From a virus, in IMG/VR virus record IMGVR_UViG_3300037346_000419, positions 17,327-81,326 of that record: a stretch of DNA of 64,000 nt; one strand, written 5' to 3'. Shown one piece after another: positions 7,836 to 18,030 of the stretch; position 1 is the stretch's first letter; the number at the start of each line of letters is the position of its first letter. Under the pieces are notes generated by a model. It saw nothing but the letters and a program-made list of their open reading frames with translations. It was not told where the DNA came from and searched no databases. The translations under genes and the position numbers were made by a program.

Positions 7836-8663
7836 TTATATATTCATACATATTTCATAGGTTAAAGAATTATAATAAACTTCAGACTTCTCTGTTCTTG
7901 ATTTCAAAAATATAATATCTTCTGGCATATTATTTTCTAATTTGTAAGTTTTAATTCTTTGTTGAAGTGTTAGGTTTTTAATTGCTTCTTCTGAAGTGTA
8001 AAAAGCTTCTAACTCATAAGCACTTAAATTTCTAGTAGCTAATTCTAGTAATTCAGGAGGAGTTGGCATTAACACATAATCTAAAAAAGCATCTAAAGCA
8101 TCATATAAATGACAATAAGATATTAATTGCCATTTGTAAACACTATCAATTCCTGTTTTGTTCTTAAAACTTTTCCAAGTTTCAGGAACTTTACAATCCC
8201 TAATTATATCATGATACTTAATATCACACTCACCAGTTAAAAAACCTTTTGAAATTCTTTCAGTATTTTTAATATATTCAGTATTATTTAATTGACTTAT
8301 TATAGATATTGCTCCATCTTCACAATATCTGCCTTTCTGTAAACTAAAAGTACCTTCTAATAAACTTGCATCAAAGAATTTATAATTATTTTCTAACCAC
8401 AGTTCTTGTAAGTAAGTTTTTGCCCCATCTGGTAAAGGGTCTTCTACACTATTTGTATAATCTTTTTGTAATTTAATAACATCTCTAGCAACTAACATTA
8501 TACCATTAGTTTCAGAATAATCAATTAATTTATCTGGATTATAATCAGTTTTTAATTTTTCTTGGACTTTATTTTTCAATATATCCGTAGCTTTCTCTAA
8601 TTCCATTTTATCAAAAAATGGCCTATTAGTACAAACTCTATGTGAACTTGAAGCTCTAATCAT
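7836..8663 (-). CDS. YqaJ/RecB-like PD-(D/E)XK exonuclease
   Basis: This 275-residue protein matches the phage recombination exonuclease layout. It begins MIRASSSHRV (the region where YqaJ-like nucleases carry a SxS...R start), then has KGRYCEDGAI (Gx..E helix), LTGECDIKYHD (catalytic D with preceding strand) and IIRDCKVPETW (D-x-K equivalent of the PD-(D/E)XK motif), followed by YKWQLISYCHLYDA (the Q-x-x-x-Y helix). It should process double-stranded ends. A single-strand annealing partner is expected, and the Sak4-like ATPase may cooperate with it. It overlaps the upstream gene by 8 bases. Confidence 0.72.
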   Translation of the reverse strand: MIRASSSHRVCTNRPFFDKMELEKATDILKNKVQEKLKTDYNPDKLIDYSETNGIMLVARDVIKLQKDYTNSVEDPLPDGAKTYLQELWLENNYKFFDASLLEGTFSLQKGRYCEDGAISIISQLNNTEYIKNTERISKGFLTGECDIKYHDIIRDCKVPETWKSFKNKTGIDSVYKWQLISYCHLYDALDAFLDYVLMPTPPELLELATRNLSAYELEAFYTSEEAIKNLTLQQRIKTYKLENNMPEDIIFLKSRTEKSEVYYNSLTYEICMNI

Positions 8664-9051
8664 TTTTGTTTTTTATATCTAAGATTTTTTTAAAATCTTC
8701 AAAACTCATATACACTAAATCATCTAACTCTTGTCTTTTATTGCCTTGACCTACTGTTTTTCTATGAATTACTATTGTAGGTAATTCGTGTTCTATTTTT
8801 GTAGGTGGCATAAGTTCTTTTATTTGATTTTTTGTGTATTCTATAACATTTTTAATATTTAAACCTCTGTCATACCCCACTTTTACTTGAACATTAAATG
8901 GTAAATTTGTTAAATCTATACCACAATTGTCATGTAATCTGCTTTCTAACCTAGAAGTTTGACAGAAAATGTAGCCAAGTTCTCTAAATAACTTGGCATA
9001 CAATCTTTCTCCATTACTTCCTTTTCTTTTATTTGTTTTTCCTTGTCCCAT
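8656..9051 (-). CDS. Small PD-(D/E)XK-type endonuclease, possibly a Holliday junction resolvase
   Basis: This 131-residue protein carries NGERLYAKLFRELGY (catalytic E helix), CGIDLTNLPFNVQVKVG (D ... Q-V-K core) and a C-terminal strand region (PTIVIHRKT). That arrangement fits the Hjr/Hjc-like restriction-endonuclease fold used for branched DNA in phage recombination. The position beside the YqaJ-like exonuclease fits a recombination role. The family call rests on motif spacing only; another small nuclease of the same fold is possible. Confidence 0.6.
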   Translation of the reverse strand: MGQGKTNKRKGSNGERLYAKLFRELGYIFCQTSRLESRLHDNCGIDLTNLPFNVQVKVGYDRGLNIKNVIEYTKNQIKELMPPTKIEHELPTIVIHRKTVGQGNKRQELDDLVYMSFEDFKKILDIKNKND

Positions 9052-9054
9052 GTT

Positions 9055-9948
9055 TTAAAAAGGTAAATCTATTGGATTAATACTATTAGTACTGCTAGAA
9101 TCAATAGGGTCAATTCCAGCTATATATGCTGGATGAGGTAGATTTATATTATTAATATCATCAGAAAGATTATTAGATATTATATCTGAATTAAAAAAGC
9201 TATTTATTGCATCACTATTTAAATTCATTTGAAATAACGCTTTTTTAATTTCTTTAAGTTTACTTCTTTCTGTGTCTCGAAATGACAAAACAACTAAATT
9301 TTCTTCTTTACAAAAATCAGATAATATATCATTTTCAACTATATTGTTTAATTCTGTTATACTATTAAAATTTTCTTCAAAACCTTTTGAAAACAACTCT
9401 TCATCTATACTTTTTGTACTTTTAAATTGTACTGAAATACCTTTTTCATAACAACTATTTATTAAGTCTTTTTCTACTTTTTTATAAAAACTTTTATATA
9501 TAGGATTTAATAAAAACTCAGTTGCTACAAGTAATTTAAAATATTTATATATGGGGACATCATTATCAAAAATTTGGTTTCTTTCATAATTTTTACAACA
9601 CAAAATTAATAAGATGTTTTCTTTATCATCTAAAATAGAATAGTGACCTGAAGAAATTTCAACATCTTTCCCTTGAACTTTAAATCCATATTTTCGTATT
9701 CTATCTTTATATTTAAAGTTTTTTAAAAATTCACTATAAGTTTTTGTTTTATAAAATCTAATACTTAAATGTTTATAATAAAATTTAATATCAGTTAAAA
9801 CAGGAAGAAAAACTGAGATGTTAAAAGGGCTTATATACATAGTATCATCACAAATTGTATAATAAGGCATATATTCTCCCAAACTTTTCACTCCTATTTT
9901 TAAAATATCAGGGTGTGCTTGAGCATCATAAATTTTGTCTATAATCAT
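9055..9948 (-). CDS. Unknown protein of the ubiquitin-like operon (297 aa)
   Basis: This 297-residue protein starts 4 bases inside the end of the E1-like gene, so it is translated with the conjugation module. The N-terminal 180 residues look globular and strand-rich (HPDILKIGVKSLGEYMPYY). The middle is charged and helical, and the C-terminal ~50 residues are low-complexity, rich in Asn, Ser, Asp and Ile. I see no RING, U-box, zinc or HECT-type cysteine pattern. It could be a target, adaptor or E3-like component, but that is guesswork from position. Confidence 0.6.
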   Translation of the reverse strand: MIIDKIYDAQAHPDILKIGVKSLGEYMPYYTICDDTMYISPFNISVFLPVLTDIKFYYKHLSIRFYKTKTYSEFLKNFKYKDRIRKYGFKVQGKDVEISSGHYSILDDKENILLILCCKNYERNQIFDNDVPIYKYFKLLVATEFLLNPIYKSFYKKVEKDLINSCYEKGISVQFKSTKSIDEELFSKGFEENFNSITELNNIVENDILSDFCKEENLVVLSFRDTERSKLKEIKKALFQMNLNSDAINSFFNSDIISNNLSDDINNINLPHPAYIAGIDPIDSSSTNSINPIDLPF

Positions 9949-10631
9949 GATATAACATTTGTATATGTGACTGGAATAAAAAACTCATAAAAAAATGGTA
10001 TATCCCTAACTTTTTCTCTTTCATGAATATTTGTTAAATGATTTGTAAAAAAAGCTGTCATTAAAGAACCTATCATTGCTGCACAATGACTTGTCTGTTT
10101 TAATGTGCATGGTGCATCTTCTACTTCATCATCATCAAAAAGATATTTTTCATACTCTTCAATTTTATCTGGAGTCACACAAAATATTTGTAATTGTTCT
10201 AATTCCAATCTACCATCTATGAAAATAGGAGTTACAGGACAATTAGGAATACTTTTTTTCCAAACTTCAAACATATCTTTTCTAGCTTTCATATTATCAA
10301 AAGCAGAAAACATAAAATAATGTGTAGGAGAATTTCTATCAATTTTTTCATTAAAAATATGAGGTGTTTTACCACAAAATTCATAAATAATATTACTAAT
10401 AGCATTTACTTTTGGTATGCCTAAATCTTTTACTTTAAACATTTGACCTCCCATATTATGTTCTTCTATTAAATCATCATCATAAATAACACAATTATTT
10501 CCTATTCTACTAAGAAAAAAACTTAACCATGTGCCAATACCTCCTGCACCCCCTATCATTACTGTTTCAGGATTTTCAGAAAACCATAAAGCATCTTTAA
10601 ATCTATTATACTGCGCTTCCATATTCTTCAA
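9945..10631 (-). CDS. E1/ThiF-like ubiquitin-activating enzyme homologue
   Basis: This 228-residue protein has the ThiF/MoeB/E1 adenylation fold: nucleotide-binding loop VMIGGAGGIGTWL (about residues 24-36), then YDDDLIEEHNMGGQMF with the conserved D-x-D..N..Q pattern, LGIPKVNAI, and the later SAFDNMKARKDMF. Near the C-terminus PCTLKQTSHCA supplies candidate catalytic cysteines. It should adenylate the C-terminus of a ubiquitin-like protein, here probably the gene product at 12993-13652. The gene overlaps the JAB gene by 26 bases. Within the family it most resembles the ThiF member of PRTRC clusters by context. No zinc CxxC pair is evident. Confidence 0.83.
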   Translation of the reverse strand: MKNMEAQYNRFKDALWFSENPETVMIGGAGGIGTWLSFFLSRIGNNCVIYDDDLIEEHNMGGQMFKVKDLGIPKVNAISNIIYEFCGKTPHIFNEKIDRNSPTHYFMFSAFDNMKARKDMFEVWKKSIPNCPVTPIFIDGRLELEQLQIFCVTPDKIEEYEKYLFDDDEVEDAPCTLKQTSHCAAMIGSLMTAFFTNHLTNIHEREKVRDIPFFYEFFIPVTYTNVIS

Positions 10632-11856
10632 ATTTTTGTAAGAAAAACTTTATTGCTAATTTTATTTTACTAACAACTTTATATTCTATTTCTAACTCTT
10701 CAAGTTCTTCAACTATACGATTTGTAATGTAAATAAAATTTTCATCGTCTTCTTCTTCTGTAAACATATTTTTATATAAAGGTACAAAATTCTCTAATAT
10801 TTGTCTACAAATTTCTTCTATTTTTACTGCTCCAATTGTCACATTTAATTCTAAATCTTCTAAAACATCATCAATAGTTTTTGTATCATCTTCTTTAGTA
10901 TTAGTATAATTTAATAAAGCATAAATAAAATCTTGTATTAAATCTAATTCATCTTCTTCTAAAAAAGTATCATTATCAATTTCTTCAAAATCTATGTCAT
11001 CAACAAATTCTTGAAATAAATCAATTTGTTTTTTATTTGTAGTGACAACTTTTGTTAAAGGACTATTAGGAATTATAGGATTATTTGGGATAATGTTTGC
11101 AAAACCTTTAATAGGATTTCTATTTTGAGGAGGAAAAGTTTGAACATAAATAGGTTTTTCAGCTTTCTTTATAATAGCTTCTACTCCTTCTTTAAATTCT
11201 TGATTAACTATTATTTCTTCTTGTTCAGATATAATGTCACAATTATAAATAAATAATTTTTCTTTTTTAAATTTTAAATCTTCTTTAGATATTGTATATT
11301 TTTTACCATTTTCATCTAAAGAAATATATGGTGTTTTTGTAATATCTTTTTGTATAGCTCCTCTAAAAGCAACTTTAGCTTCAAAATCCATATAGTTATT
11401 TACTATTAAAGAAAGATAAAAATTGTGAGAATCTGAATTATCATTTAATTCACTCATATCTGTTCCAGAGAAAAAAACATTCATTGTATTGTGGCTATGT
11501 ATATGCCCAATTTTCCAATTCATTCTTTCTTCATCTTTCATCATATAATCTACAAATCTATTATCAAATTCGTATTCTGTAAAAGCTTGTGTGCCTTTAT
11601 CCATTGGTAAAATATCTCTTATAATAAGAAGCATATTTTCGGGTTTTCTTATAGAGCCTATTATTTCATAAAATAATATTCCTGACCACTCTACCTTTGC
11701 TATTTTTTTACACAGGTACTTGATTTTGAATAATATTTCTTTGGATATTTCTAATTTTATTCTCTTTTCTAATTGCTCTATTGACAACGACTTGTTTATA
11801 TAAATGTTGTTCGAGGGCATTACTTGCGGATTTTGTGTATTTTGGTAATAATTCAT
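10606..11856 (-). CDS. JAMM/JAB-domain metalloprotease (deubiquitinase-like)
   Basis: This 416-residue protein carries a complete JAMM zinc protease signature: E56 in KVEWSGILFYE, then H120-S-H122, S130 and D133 in HIHSHNTMNVFFSGTD, exactly H-x-H-x7-S-x2-D. It would cleave isopeptide bonds or process the ubiquitin-like protein. The JAB domain covers about residues 35-190. The rest is a Pro/Asn linker and an acidic helical C-terminal region with many Glu/Asp, of unknown role. The start overlaps the E2-like gene by up to 149 bases; ATG codons at 11856 and 11820 are both possible, the latter leaving a shorter overlap. Expected partners are the E1 and E2-like products on either side. Confidence 0.85.
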   Translation of the reverse strand: MNYYQNTQNPQVMPSNNIYINKSLSIEQLEKRIKLEISKEILFKIKYLCKKIAKVEWSGILFYEIIGSIRKPENMLLIIRDILPMDKGTQAFTEYEFDNRFVDYMMKDEERMNWKIGHIHSHNTMNVFFSGTDMSELNDNSDSHNFYLSLIVNNYMDFEAKVAFRGAIQKDITKTPYISLDENGKKYTISKEDLKFKKEKLFIYNCDIISEQEEIIVNQEFKEGVEAIIKKAEKPIYVQTFPPQNRNPIKGFANIIPNNPIIPNSPLTKVVTTNKKQIDLFQEFVDDIDFEEIDNDTFLEEDELDLIQDFIYALLNYTNTKEDDTKTIDDVLEDLELNVTIGAVKIEEICRQILENFVPLYKNMFTEEEDDENFIYITNRIVEELEELEIEYKVVSKIKLAIKFFLQKFEEYGSAV

Positions 11857-12949
11857 ATTTTACTTTTATTTCTTCTTTTGTTTCTTGTTTTTTTTCATAA
11901 ACTTTAAAATCTATAATTTTACTTCTAAAAATTATAGAAGGAATTAAATTTTGATTTTTCAAATCTTTATTTATTTCTTTTACGTTTTCTTTATAATCAT
12001 CTTTATTAAATTGATAGTATATATCTTCTATTTTTGTTACAATAAGATTTTTTATATTGTCATAATCAAACTTTTTAATTATATTTATTATTGTGTTTTT
12101 AAAATTATCATTTATTATAAATTTAAGACTTCTATTTTGTACTATAACACGTAAATTTTTTATATCATTCTCATTTATATTTTTAATTAATTGAATATTT
12201 ACTATATTAAACATATTTTTAGCATCAGTTCTATCTATTGATATACTACTACTTTCTGCATTTGTTATAACATCTCTCATTTTTATATGGGGGCCACCTT
12301 CTAAGGATTCCCAAGATAAATAGTTATCTAAAGTAATAATAAATAATTCAAATGCTTCAGGAGTACATTCATTTCTATTTATAGATATTATATCAGAAAT
12401 TTCACTTTCTCCATAACAAAAACTTGAACTATAAAAATTTTTATTATATTTATAACTCATTGTATTAGTATGAGAGTGTCTATAAGCATTGTGAAATTCT
12501 TGTTTATTAACTGATAATCTAATACCTTTAAAATCTTTAAAAAAGATGGATGAAGTAAATTTATGTATAGGTAAAACTATTAATAAATCTTTTATAAGAT
12601 GTTCTTCTTCTACACTATTTTTAATTGTGATAGAAGGATATAATATAAAAATATTTATTTGTATAGAATTTATTAAAGTATTATCTTGCTTATTAGAAAA
12701 ATTATCTATAATACTTAAATTAATATCCCAATTATCTTTATGATGTGCATTTAAAATTGGAGTAATTAAATTTATAAAATTAGAAAATCTTATTTTATTT
12801 CTAACCCCTATACCACATACATAATCTTTTTGTATTAAAGTTTTTAAAAAATTTATGTCTCTTGATTTTCCTGATTTGTTCCAATTATTGCATAATTTAA
12901 TAATTGTATTTTCATAAGTAGTTCCTATTGTGTTTATATTTAACTGCAT
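11708..12949 (-). CDS. Candidate E2-like (PRTRC-B type) conjugation protein
   Basis: This 413-residue protein sits between the Ubl and JAB genes, where PRTRC clusters place their E2-like member. The segment LLIVLPIHKF, then NAYRHSHTN, then SSSFCYGESEIS resembles the prokaryotic E2-like pattern of a hydrophobic strand, an HxH turn and a catalytic cysteine in a C-x-G context, followed by LSWESLEGGPHIKM. The N-terminal ~90 residues and the helical C-terminal ~170 residues are not assignable. The assignment as E2 is an inference from motif shape and gene order; there is no strong sequence signature. The last ~49 codons are read in a second frame by the JAB gene. Confidence 0.55.
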   Translation of the reverse strand: MQLNINTIGTTYENTIIKLCNNWNKSGKSRDINFLKTLIQKDYVCGIGVRNKIRFSNFINLITPILNAHHKDNWDINLSIIDNFSNKQDNTLINSIQINIFILYPSITIKNSVEEEHLIKDLLIVLPIHKFTSSIFFKDFKGIRLSVNKQEFHNAYRHSHTNTMSYKYNKNFYSSSFCYGESEISDIISINRNECTPEAFELFIITLDNYLSWESLEGGPHIKMRDVITNAESSSISIDRTDAKNMFNIVNIQLIKNINENDIKNLRVIVQNRSLKFIINDNFKNTIINIIKKFDYDNIKNLIVTKIEDIYYQFNKDDYKENVKEINKDLKNQNLIPSIIFRSKIIDFKVYEKKQETKEEIKVKYELLPKYTKSASNALEQHLYKQVVVNRAIRKENKIRNIQRNIIQNQVPV

Positions 12950-12958
12950 AATTTTTTA

Positions 12959-12978
12959 AAGGGGTGTTTCCACCCCTA
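12959..12978 (-). terminator. GC-rich hairpin between the Ubl and E2-like genes
   Basis: The stem AGGGGTG/CACCCCT with a short loop stands out in AT-rich sequence, directly after the Ubl stop and before the E2-like start at 12949. The U-tract is weak (TTTAAAAAATT), so it may be an attenuator or processing site that raises Ubl over enzyme levels instead of a full terminator. Confidence 0.5.
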
Positions 12979-12992
12979 TCTAATTTGTTTTT

Positions 12993-13652
12993 TTAAAAAC
13001 CTTTATTAATTTCTGCTAATTCTCTAGTTAATCTTTCAGTTTCTTCTCTGTCATCAATAGCTGCTTGGGCTGACTCAGAATTACTATAAGTTTCAATTAA
13101 ATTTAACACTCTGTTATATTTTCTTGAATCTACTAAGTCTTCCCAAGCTGTTGTCAAATCATTTTTATCAATTACTAAAACAACTTCTGCTAGATTATTC
13201 TCAACAGAAAGAATAGCTAAAGAAGATTGAGAAGGACTAATTTGTTCTGAAACTGCTTCTGGCTCTGGAGTTTGAGTTAAATTGTTAAAATAGTTTTTTA
13301 AATCTAAAGTTGAACATTGTGTCCAACTAACTTTACAGTTGAATTTAGCCACTCCAATTTTATCAGCAGGACTTAGTTGATTTCTTAAATCATTATAATT
13401 CATATTGTTATAATCTACTCCAGATTTAGTTTTAATAGGACTGATAAACAAAGTAAAAGCTGTAGTAGGCAATATTGCTATACTACTTTCTAAACTTGTT
13501 CTATTTACACTTTCTAAAGCTTTGAATTGATTCATATCAAATCCTTTATTTTCTACAACACTTTTCAATTCACCCCAAGTTGTTGCTGATGATTGAATTT
13601 TAATTTTTTCACCTTTTGTGGTGAATATGGTGATTTCTCTTTCGTTACTCAT
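12993..13652 (-). CDS. Ubiquitin-like beta-grasp protein (PRTRC-C type)
   Basis: This 219-residue protein has an N-terminal beta-grasp pattern of about 72 residues: ITIFTTKGEKIKIQSS (beta hairpin), TTWGELKSVVENKG (central helix), KALESVNRTSLES, and TAFTLFISPIKTKSG as the last strand. This is the pattern of the prokaryotic ubiquitin-like PRTRC system protein C. A linker rich in Pro/Glu/Ser follows, then a helical C-terminal region ending INKGF. There is no terminal Gly-Gly, so either maturation by the JAB protease exposes an internal end or the whole protein is used. It is first in the order Ubl, E2-like, JAB, E1. The ATG follows a long A/T-only leader. Confidence 0.75.
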   Translation of the reverse strand: MSNEREITIFTTKGEKIKIQSSATTWGELKSVVENKGFDMNQFKALESVNRTSLESSIAILPTTAFTLFISPIKTKSGVDYNNMNYNDLRNQLSPADKIGVAKFNCKVSWTQCSTLDLKNYFNNLTQTPEPEAVSEQISPSQSSLAILSVENNLAEVVLVIDKNDLTTAWEDLVDSRKYNRVLNLIETYSNSESAQAAIDDREETERLTRELAEINKGF

Positions 13653-13691: not shown

Positions 13692-14726
13692 TTATAGAAG
13701 ATTTATATTTTTATCTCTTAAAAAATCTATTAAATTTTGTTTTCCTTTATTTTCTATTAAATCTGATGCATCTGAAATTTTATCTTTTAATAAATTTTCA
13801 TTTAACCATATTTTTTCTATATTATTAATACCTAATGATATTAATAAATCATATAGTTTTATAGAAGCTTTTATTCCAGCTTTATCATTATCAAAAAAAA
13901 TAATAATTTTATTAAAAGAATTTAATAAATTTTTTAATATTTCCTTATCAGGAAACATTCCTTCATTTTGAAACCAAATTACATTTAAATTTAGATTTTT
14001 TAATACTCTATAATCTTTATAAGATTTAGTAATTATTATATTATCTGAATTATTATCTATGAAATTTATTCCCCCAATATCATTATTATCACAATTAGTT
14101 ATAAATTTTTTAACTTTTTGCTCAGGTCTATAGATTTTCTTTTTATTATCTTTAAAATCTGTATAGCAATAACATAAATCGATGGGTCTAACAGTTATAT
14201 CTCCTTTTCTTGTATTCAATAGTTTGAATTTTTGAATTGGAAAAACTTTATCATCTATTAAATTTTGTTTAGTAATTTCATAAGGAGTCCAATAAAGACC
14301 ATCTATTTTACTGAAATTTCTTGTTGCAATTAGAATCTTAAAATCTTTTTTAATAACATTGACTTTTTTGACTTTTTTTACAACTGGTTTTATAACAAAA
14401 TTTTTATTTTTTATGATATTTTTATTTATAAAAGCTAAAGTTTCATAAAAATTCTTTAAATTGTATTTTAGTTTGATTGCATCAAAACAATCAATTTTTA
14501 GATTATCTGCATAATCAACAAATCTTAGGGTGTTAGCATCTAATTCAAACCAACACCCTGGATTTGTATCATCTCTAAAAGGAGATATGATATATTCAAA
14601 TTCTATAGGTTCAAAACCAAATACATAAGCAAATATATCTTGTTCAGATACTTTATTAAGTATAGATTCTTTACTAATAAAACCTTTAACTTCTATATTA
14701 TCTGTTATTTTATCATAAATAGACAT
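13692..14726 (-). CDS. DnaG-type DNA primase with Toprim domain
   Basis: This 344-residue primase begins with a DnaG N-terminal-like region (SPFRDDTNPGCWFEL, FVDYADNLKIDCFDAI) but lacks an obvious Cys/His zinc set. The Toprim domain follows in the second half: NIIITKSYKDYRVL in place of the usual acidic EG motif, then KIIIFFDNDKAGIKAS with the D-x-D metal ligands. It would prime phage DNA synthesis with the DnaB-like helicase. A -7 promoter box lies directly upstream of the start. The Lys-Ser in the first Toprim motif is a variant I associate with phage primases. Confidence 0.82.
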   Translation of the reverse strand: MSIYDKITDNIEVKGFISKESILNKVSEQDIFAYVFGFEPIEFEYIISPFRDDTNPGCWFELDANTLRFVDYADNLKIDCFDAIKLKYNLKNFYETLAFINKNIIKNKNFVIKPVVKKVKKVNVIKKDFKILIATRNFSKIDGLYWTPYEITKQNLIDDKVFPIQKFKLLNTRKGDITVRPIDLCYCYTDFKDNKKKIYRPEQKVKKFITNCDNNDIGGINFIDNNSDNIIITKSYKDYRVLKNLNLNVIWFQNEGMFPDKEILKNLLNSFNKIIIFFDNDKAGIKASIKLYDLLISLGINNIEKIWLNENLLKDKISDASDLIENKGKQNLIDFLRDKNINLL

Positions 14727-14751: not shown

Positions 14752-15477
14752 TCACCCCCAAGAAGCTTTACTAGAATCTGTTATAGGACTATCAGTAGGT
14801 TTAACTTTATCGTTTTGCTCATTAGCTTTTGGGCTTTCCATGTAATTAGTATTTCTAGTAATTACATGTGTTTCTCCTTTTGAATTAACATATTTTAATC
14901 CATCAGCATCAACAACTTTTTCCCAAGGCCCTGGCATAGCAGGAGATAAAAATTTACCACCTTTCATGTTTTGAGGTAATTGAAGAAAAGTTCTTGTGTT
15001 ATCAGCTTTTATAGCCCATTGATATTCTAAAAACACATCTACATCTCTATCTGCAAAATTTGCTGGTAATAAAGATACTAAGATTTGCGCCCAAGATTTA
15101 AAATCTGTAGGAGGAGTTGCTAAAGATTTCTTAATTTGTTCATCTGTAACTCCAAGAGCTTTTAAAGCATGGATTACTACTGCTCCATTTTGAGTCATTT
15201 CAGCTATTTTAGCTTCTTCATAACCTTCTCCACCTGGCTCTGTTAAAGCTCCACTTACATATAAAGCTCCAGTAATATCATAAATTCTATTTCTGTATTC
15301 TTTATTAGGTGTAGTAACAGTTAATAGGATAGCATCTGCTGCTGCTCCATCTTTTCCTGCTGTTTCACTAAATTCAAAAGTTGTAATTTTACCTGAAGTT
15401 AAACCAAAAGTATCATAACTTGAAGATTTACCTTGAAGATTTTCATCTTCATCATTTACATATCCAAATACTGACAT
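14752..15477 (-). CDS. Probable phage single-stranded DNA-binding protein
   Basis: This 241-residue protein lies between the HTH gene and primase, where crAss-like phages usually carry a divergent SSB. The sequence is strand-rich (GKITTFEFSETAG, AILLTVTTPNKEYRNRIYDI), has a central helix region (DEQIKKSLA) and ends with a flexible tail (KPTDSPITDSSKASWG) like the disordered C-terminus of SSBs. The call is from context and general pattern; no OB-fold signature is diagnostic. Its start overlaps the HTH gene stop by one base. Confidence 0.5.
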   Translation of the reverse strand: MSVFGYVNDEDENLQGKSSSYDTFGLTSGKITTFEFSETAGKDGAAADAILLTVTTPNKEYRNRIYDITGALYVSGALTEPGGEGYEEAKIAEMTQNGAVVIHALKALGVTDEQIKKSLATPPTDFKSWAQILVSLLPANFADRDVDVFLEYQWAIKADNTRTFLQLPQNMKGGKFLSPAMPGPWEKVVDADGLKYVNSKGETHVITRNTNYMESPKANEQNDKVKPTDSPITDSSKASWG

Positions 15478-16899: not shown

Positions 16900-18030
16900 T
16901 TATTTATTTGGTATTATTAATGGTTCAAAATTTTTCCAACCCCCATACATATTAACTCTAAAGTGTTGTGGAAACTCACAATGTCTGCTTTCCACTAAAT
17001 GTAAAGTTCTTAGTTTAGGATATAAAGGATTACCTTTACTGTCTTTTATTTCTGCACCAAAATGTTTCATTAAATTATATCTTGTATCATTTGGATTTAA
17101 CATAGTTATTAGATAATCACAATCTTCAGCTACATTACCCGAATCTTTCACATCATCACTTGAGGGATGTAATTCATCTCCAAATTGTTTAAATCTTTCT
17201 ACACTTGTTAAACTTCTATTTAAATGTATTACATTTACAAAGTTATAATTTATTAAATTTTTTAATATTACACTGTATTCAGACATTTTATCTACAGTTT
17301 GTTTCATTTGCATTTGCCTTTCAGGAATCAGTTTTCTTAAATGGTCTATTAATACAACAGTGAATTTTTTTGAATCGTTTTCAACATAACTTGTTAATCT
17401 TTCATATCCTTTTTCACCTGTATATATGAGTTTACCATTTGCTTCTGCATGTTTTAAAAGGTTTTTATAAACTCCTGTAGGATTATCTGTACTTGTAATA
17501 AAAATTATTGCTCCTCTTTTAGTTAAAATATTACTATCATTATATTCTCCAAATAAAGGTATTATTCTATCTGGATATATTTTAAATAGTAACTCTTCAA
17601 TCTTTTCATCTACTTTAATTAATTCATCATTATCATCTAATAATTTCCCAAGTAAGTAATCTGCATCTAATTCTATTACATTCTTACCTTTTTTTGTAAT
17701 CCCTGGGGGTAAAGTAATATATGTAATATTGTAATCATGATACAAAAAATAACAAGCAAAATTAAATTCTTGTGTTATCCTATCCATTTCTAATGAGTAA
17801 TATATAAATTCAATAGGAATGTTATTAGCTAAACAAAATAGATAAGGTTGAATGATAAAAGCATAATTTATAAAAGTGGATTTACCTGTTTTAGGAGGAG
17901 AAGCAATACCATAGTACCTAGCTTTTTGCAAACCGTTTAACGCTTTAGTAAACGGAGCTAAACCTGGCCCAAAGGGTATTCCTCTATTTTCTCCTAATTG
18001 ACCTTTTTTGTAATTTTTTATAAAAGTCAT
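16900..18030 (-). CDS. DnaB-like replicative helicase
   Basis: This 376-residue protein contains the RecA core of a DnaB-type hexameric helicase: Walker A ASPPKTGKSTFINYAF (about residues 43-58), FIYYSLEMDRITQEF as the strand/helix with catalytic Glu, KKFTVVLIDHLRKL as Walker B, and VIHLNRSLTSVERFK with the DnaB-like motif 4 region. The N-terminal primase-binding domain is very reduced. It would unwind the phage replication fork ahead of the family A polymerase. Its start overlaps the upstream gene stop by one base. Confidence 0.82.
   Translation of the reverse strand: MTFIKNYKKGQLGENRGIPFGPGLAPFTKALNGLQKARYYGIASPPKTGKSTFINYAFIIQPYLFCLANNIPIEFIYYSLEMDRITQEFNFACYFLYHDYNITYITLPPGITKKGKNVIELDADYLLGKLLDDNDELIKVDEKIEELLFKIYPDRIIPLFGEYNDSNILTKRGAIIFITSTDNPTGVYKNLLKHAEANGKLIYTGEKGYERLTSYVENDSKKFTVVLIDHLRKLIPERQMQMKQTVDKMSEYSVILKNLINYNFVNVIHLNRSLTSVERFKQFGDELHPSSDDVKDSGNVAEDCDYLITMLNPNDTRYNLMKHFGAEIKDSKGNPLYPKLRTLHLVESRHCEFPQHFRVNMYGGWKNFEPLIIPNK

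Follow-up and report, generated by a model that had tools for sequence, protein, structure and literature searches.

A probable ubiquitin-like conjugation pathway encoded among the replication genes of a crAss-like phage

The 64,000-nucleotide stretch of DNA analyzed here (the window; positions 17,327 to 81,326 of the IMG/VR virus record IMGVR_UViG_3300037346_000419, which is 81,326 bases long) carries four consecutive open reading frames (ORFs) for a ubiquitin-like protein (Ubl), an E2-like protein, a JAMM metalloprotease, and an E1/ThiF-like activating enzyme. All genes in question lie on the minus strand. A first-pass annotation of the sequence had proposed this cluster as a conjugation module, and we confirmed its four genes at the positions below, which are listed with the residues on which our interpretation depends.

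12993 to 13652, minus strand: Ubl precursor, 219 aa, with a beta-grasp domain (residues 1-78) and a C-terminal tail (residues 79-219); AlphaFold2 (AF2) model, Foldseek, and phrog_15560 (2.5e-19).
13419 to 13433, minus strand: KTKSG, the proposed processing and conjugation site, with Gly78 as the proposed mature C-terminus.
11708 to 12949, minus strand: E2-like protein, 413 aa, in the slot between Ubl and JAMM that protein B holds in PRTRC loci; AF2 topology.
12470 to 12478, minus strand: HSH motif of the E2-like protein (residues 158-160).
12416 to 12418, minus strand: Cys178 in FCYG, the candidate thioester cysteine of the E2-like protein, invariant in 40/40 sequences.
10606 to 11856, minus strand: JAMM metalloprotease, 416 aa, ORF start uncertain; Prok-JAB matched by 31/31 relatives, and hhalign alignment to PRTRC protein A.
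11458 to 11499, minus strand: JAMM signature H120-S-H122-x7-S130-x2-D133, invariant columns.
11689 to 11691, minus strand: E56 of the JAMM protein, upstream of the signature, invariant column.
9945 to 10631, minus strand: E1/ThiF-like activating enzyme, 228 aa; PF00899 (4e-10), and hhalign alignment to PRTRC ThiF.
10533 to 10553, minus strand: GGAGGIG nucleotide-binding loop of E1, with G28, G30, G31, I32, and G33 invariant (18 sequences).
10107 to 10109, minus strand: Cys175, the candidate thioester cysteine of E1, invariant.

The AF2 model of the Ubl, built with 41 homologues, has a strand-strand-helix-strand-strand arrangement over residues 5-72 at a predicted local distance difference test (pLDDT) score of about 95, providing the confident beta-grasp that had been singled out beforehand as a check on the 219-aa protein. 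A Foldseek search of this model against the PDB returned ubiquitin, UBX, and SUMO as leading matches, with target-normalized template modeling (TM) scores mostly of 0.6-0.74. Across 73 distinct homologues, most of which carry K-x-K-S-G after the beta-grasp domain, the Gly at the domain end is kept in 73/73, and is followed by anything from 1 to 252 residues. All eight short Ubls (72-94 aa) terminate exactly one residue past this Gly, and placing the short form on the E1 tree takes six changes, at least five of them forced by well-supported branches. Such exact conservation of the boundary in homologues with and without a long tail is the expected appearance of a processing site. A specific resemblance between the Ubl and PRTRC protein C, as first suggested, is not supported: the two share only their fold and a C-terminal K-x-K-(S)-G pattern, the profile-profile comparison between them is not significant, and PF14454 (Prok_Ub) has no match in the window Ubl or elsewhere in its genome. 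A SAP-like DNA-binding motif considered for the Ubl tails was dropped, being found in only 2/41 members with a best E-value (E) of 0.052.

In the JAMM protein, E56, H120, H122, S130, and D133 are invariant across 31 sequences, which gives the E..H-x-H-x7-S-x2-D arrangement of JAMM/MPN+ proteases and agrees with the complete site read from the sequence at first pass. The H-x-H-x7-S-x2-D pattern is present in 75 of 76 distinct relatives, the one exception carrying a three-residue insert. The protein also has a PADLOC JAB match (2e-7), and hhalign places it with PRTRC protein A (89%, E 2.5e-6). We note that its ORF overlaps that of the E2-like protein out of frame by 149 bp (11708-11856), such that the true JAMM start may lie further in; overlaps of 60-160 bp between these two ORFs are common among relatives, and reflect either a genuine dual-coding stretch or late JAMM starts. 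Separately, a group I intron-like element (43.4 bits, slightly below the family cut-off of 50) that carries a LAGLIDADG endonuclease ORF splits the JAMM gene of the cultured Flavobacterium phage Fpv2 (L030:6042-7073) precisely at its H-x-H codons, and the gene of the near-identical Fpv3 (L034) is uninterrupted.

The identification of the last gene as an E1/ThiF-like enzyme with a GGAGGIG loop is likewise upheld, both by its ThiF domain match (PF00899) and by a profile of 18 relatives, which matches the structures of MccB, UBA5, the SUMO E1 (SAE2), the NEDD8 E1, and the ubiquitin E1. The superfamily features (a GxGGxG loop, D-x-D..N..Q..K, and a candidate Cys) are all found, and most of GGAGGIG, D51/D53, N59, Q63, K74, an FDNM..R segment, and Cys175 are invariant in the 18 sequences. 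Whole-length hhalign comparison with PRTRC ThiF gives 98.8% (E 4e-16, global), and aligns Cys175 with the conserved PSCS cysteine of those proteins. The annotation had raised the prospect of a catalytically dead E1/JAMM pair in close relatives; the catalytic residues there are intact. The E1 ORF begins with TTG, and comparison with relatives makes the in-frame ATG at residue 4 the likelier start. In one related locus (L012:9715-9995), the JAMM gene is separated by a group I intron (RF00028, 89 bits) from what is intact of the E1 ORF, from which the N-terminus is missing.

Databases label this E1 'thiamine biosynthesis protein ThiF' and list the other module genes as hypothetical, and the ThiF NCBIfam model matches it at 1e-11, under its cut-off. 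Such names would fit a sulfur-carrier system of the ThiS/ThiF or MoaD/MoeB-like kind, in which a Ubl thiocarboxylate serves cofactor, RNA, or DNA thiolation. We consider this very unlikely, since the JAMM and Cys-bearing E2-like partners are constant, the E1 cysteine is kept at the PRTRC position, and no ThiG match was obtained in three phages with control genomes positive.

The same four genes in the same order were found in 73 of the 77 distinct phage-type E1 loci that we compared, with a primase upstream in 71/72, and the four incomplete loci include contigs cut off at one end. The cluster is therefore not a chance juxtaposition. In the window, the order is primase, Ubl, E2-like, JAMM, E1, gene X, resolvase-like nuclease, and exonuclease, which places the module between primase and recombination nucleases as first described, with the following neighbors.

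13692 to 14726, minus strand: DNA primase, the constant upstream neighbor (phrog_12622, 1e-81).
9055 to 9948, minus strand: gene X, conserved, downstream of E1 (phrog_15446, 5.6e-14).
8656 to 9051, minus strand: flanking Holliday-junction-resolvase-like nuclease (phrog_244, 3.4e-8).
7836 to 8663, minus strand: flanking exonuclease (phrog_5715, 1e-30).

Related ORFs to gene X are present in most near relatives; a reading of gene X as an E3/RING protein was rejected, as it has no conserved Cys/His. Upstream of the primase, 14752-15477 encodes a conserved 241-aa protein (phrog_15339), possibly binding single-stranded DNA, with no Pfam match.

The crAss-like character of the genome, also part of the first-pass annotation, is borne out by relatives of its terminase, portal, and primase, and by a capsid protein nearest to Flavobacterium Fpv phages and next to crAss-like phages; the DNA polymerase family was assigned as well. 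Named or cultured carriers of the E1 include the Flavobacterium Fpv phages, crAss001, DAC15, and cr85_1 (human-gut phages and Steigviridae among them), and the full module was verified in Fpv2, DAC15, and cr85_1. A scan of genome contigs gave five loci, of which one is on a phage-like contig of a metagenome-assembled genome, one is on a short contig, and three have distant E1s. A contig binned as Clostridium sp. (L113) carries primase and the whole module, clusters with the crAss phages in the E1 tree, and is probably a phage contig within the bin.

Placement also bears on a virion-assembly reading, modeled on the proposal for the lambda tail Ubl/JAB pair, under which Ubl and JAMM would process structural proteins. 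Lambda-type phages do pair a Ubl with a JAB among their tail genes (PMC1779556), and the lambda/T1 pair resembles the present one in combining a phage Ubl bearing a C-terminal domain with a JAB peptidase. However, the tail pair has no E1 or E2, whereas the module studied here includes both an E1 and an E2-like protein. It also belongs to the replication block, is encoded on the other strand from the structural genes, and is neighbored by replication genes in the examined loci, such that a virion-assembly role appears extremely unlikely.

The closest bacterial comparison is with the PRTRC clusters of plasmids and integrative elements, which fit the description of operon type 6d by Iyer et al. 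2006 (PMC1779556). The match in gene order to PRTRC loci that the first-pass annotation pointed out held on comparison with their C-B-A-ThiF arrangement: both systems run Ubl, E2, JAB, ThiF, both have homologous E1 and JAMM proteins, a K-x-K-(S)-G-like Ubl C-terminus, and C-x-G in the E2 position, and both are set among DNA-maintenance genes. They differ in that the phage E2-like and JAMM proteins are larger, the phage Ubl is always a precursor with at least one extra residue, and the module sits in a phage replication block. The E1, though homologous, scores 32.8 bits against the TIGR03736 (PRTRC ThiF) cut-off of 144.75; the window JAMM protein has no DUF2016 match and reaches only 14.2 bits against 101.8 for PRTRC_A (E 0.024); and three phages gave no match to a TIGR03737-type E2 (1.7e-76 in a control plasmid) and lack PRTRC ParB and protein F, which are present in the control plasmid. 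The module is thus not PRTRC proper. Its nearest relative is the PRTRC core (Prok_Ub, Prok-E2_D, JAB, ThiF), and as far as sequence comparison reaches, it would work like that core.

PRTRC loci also offer a view of the Ubl tail, which we examined in 19 of them. Where the JAMM gene is absent, the Gly is the very last residue of the Ubl (KTNG, KTKG, GTKG, GVKG) in 11/11 loci, from three gamma-proteobacterial plasmids and eight Bacteroidota genomes (L149-L156, without protein A), and where it is present, extra Ubl residues follow in 7/8. Taken together, the conserved Gly, the precise tail boundary, and this pairing of JAMM with tail indicate that maturation of the Ubl precursor is most likely carried out by JAMM, and is most likely its constant job. 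A precedent comes from archaea, where the JAMM protein CsRpn11 processes a ubiquitin precursor (PMC6043591). That source describes a compact Caldiarchaeum Ub-E1-E2-Rpn11 operon comparable to the present set, with JAMM maturing the Ub precursor, although it belongs to an archaeal cell rather than a phage; no small RING was found in the phage module, and the phage E2-like protein is a candidate only.

On the basis of the intact active sites, the constant partnership, and the processing boundary, we consider it likely that the phage encodes a self-contained ubiquitin-like conjugation pathway. The catalytic steps that we infer would begin with the Ubl being made as a precursor, which JAMM would cleave after Gly78 to free the C-terminal glycine. 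Gly78 would then be adenylated by the E1 and held as a thioester on Cys175, after which the Ubl would be handed to Cys178 of the E2-like protein and from there onto target amino groups. Removal of the Ubl from its targets would probably also fall to JAMM.

Several observations weigh against this interpretation. One PRTRC locus (L122) has JAMM together with a Ubl without a tail, and the exact test on the pairing (7/8 vs 0/11, about 1.6e-4) ignores the relatedness of the loci. The arginine in N-x-G-R-Q of the PRTRC E1 is replaced by Gly here (N-x-G-G-Q). The module is lacking in the Suoliviridae phages cr1_1 and cr4_1, where the primase lies close to the resolvase, and since some families do without it, its function must be dispensable or replaceable in the crAss-like group. 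Finally, and of most consequence for the E2-like protein, Foldseek of its AF2 model against the PDB gave no significant fold match, Pfam and NCBIfam (PF14460 included) gave none over 40 members, a PDB profile search gave nothing significant, and hhalign against PRTRC B, full and domain-trimmed, was not significant, the best alignment being 14-25 columns around C-x-G at a probability of about 2%.

These fold and profile results lower the E2 claim, and leave E2 identity as the weakest link of the pathway. The structure check foreseen for the 413-aa protein did not turn up a significant UBC-fold match. Y156, S159, H160, C178, G180, S215, and G218 are invariant in the 40 sequences, H158 is kept in at least 90%, and all exceptions to the FCYG pattern retain C-x-G on inspection; the spacing from the near-invariant HSH to the Cys exceeds that of classical E2s. 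The AF2 model (mean pLDDT 81.5) has a helix, a four-strand meander, an active-site loop, two helices, and an extra C-terminal domain, a topology (from DSSP) compatible with a UBC fold even though no PDB match has E <0.07, and in BFVD the significant Foldseek matches are to uncharacterized proteins, including some from crAss-like relatives.

It could accordingly be argued that Ubl processing and activation are real and that the 413-aa protein is instead an adaptor or substrate, or is bypassed by direct transfer from the E1. A minimal E1-like enzyme can function with no dedicated E2, and the lack of a UBC-fold, Pfam, or NCBIfam match speaks for this view. We nevertheless judge it somewhat unlikely, as the protein has an invariant C-x-G after HSH and a helix, four strands, an active loop, and two helices in its model, as it sits where PRTRC loci have Prok-E2_D, and as a jumbo-phage neighbor carries HPH..CLG. 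Motif, position, and topology thus give circumstantial support to the E2 assignment, and E2 function of the 413-aa protein is probable.

This jumbo phage, Xanthomonas phage PhiXhv-15 (L121:4739-8618), encodes a related E1, a small 141-aa upstream protein ending in KASGG, and an 892-aa protein with HPH..CLG and a Cys-rich end, with no JAMM found. It is likely another kind of phage Ubl module, one lacking JAMM, with Ubl and E2 readings that rest on motif; a small protein that already ends in GG where no JAMM was found speaks for Ubl maturation as the task of JAMM. In the huge phage LR756511 (595 kb; L133:6617-8542), an E1 lies close to a JAMM protein (Prok-JAB 8e-8).

The fixed place of the module in the replication/recombination block makes replication-repair proteins, of phage or host, the likeliest substrates. 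The PhiXhv-15 version, surrounded by DNA ligase and gyrase B genes, points the same way, as do PRTRC clusters, which adjoin ParB, one plasmid also having SSB, helicase, and RdgC genes, and one Aeromonas cluster (L124:2355-3509) containing a DNA polymerase III beta clamp gene. As guilt by association, we offer this substrate assignment tentatively.

The main rival is counter-defense, in which the phage pathway would modify or strip host defense proteins (e.g., of CBASS Cap2/Cap3 or Bil type) instead of serving replication. Hosts do have Ubl-type defense, namely the type II cyclic-oligonucleotide-based antiphage signaling system (CBASS; PMC10097602), which shares E1, E2-like, and JAMM chemistry with the phage module, and PRTRC Ubl loci, found in 9/297 sampled Bacteroidota genomes, are possible partners for the phage Ubl or JAMM. 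Counter-defense genes are usually patchy, however, whereas this module keeps the same order and replication-block place across deep divergence, which gives it the look of core machinery. Moreover, its E1 and E2-like proteins are separate rather than fused as in Cap2, it has its own Ubl with a processing site, plasmid-borne E1 matches are mostly PRTRC ThiF, and no CD-NTase (SMODS PF18144) match was found in three phages. Interference with Cap2/Cap3 systems, as the annotation had floated, is therefore favored by none of our evidence, and we regard counter-defense as unlikely.

Returning to replication, the Steigviridae phage cr108_1 (L118:9244-16300) fills the module slot downstream of the primase with an ATP-grasp protein, a COOH-NH2 ligase, a glutamine amidotransferase, and an amidoligase. 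These are predicted amide-bond-forming enzymes unrelated to those of the module, with no Ubl, E1, E2-like, or JAMM protein found at the locus. The broadest form of our proposal is that a large crAss-like clade runs a full viral Ubl pathway, with JAMM maturing the tag, which modifies replication/recombination proteins in parallel to PCNA ubiquitylation/SUMOylation, and that another amide-ligating cluster replaces it in one related lineage; taken whole, we hold this to be possible but rather doubtful.

Bacterial Ubl-E2-JAMM-E1 sets are already known from mobile elements and defense systems. No paper naming a Ubl pathway in crAss-like phages was found in a search whose reach excluded most subscription papers, and the terms ubiquitin, ThiF, and JAB are absent from the main text of the phiCrAss001 paper, a 2021 genome survey, and a 2023 review. 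As far as the literature searched shows, then, a major phage lineage, with the cultured gut phages crAss001 and DAC15 among its members, has a conserved core set that has gone unnoticed behind 'thiamine biosynthesis protein' labels. New here are the universal Gly of the 73 Ubls, the stop of short Ubls one residue past it, and the JAMM/tail pairing in PRTRC, a rule that yields a clean prediction of which bacterial Ubls need processing. The cultured carriers would open PRTRC-type biochemistry, predicted in 2006, to direct testing, and if the proposed pathway is real, ubiquitin-like tagging would form part of the life cycle of bacterial viruses themselves.

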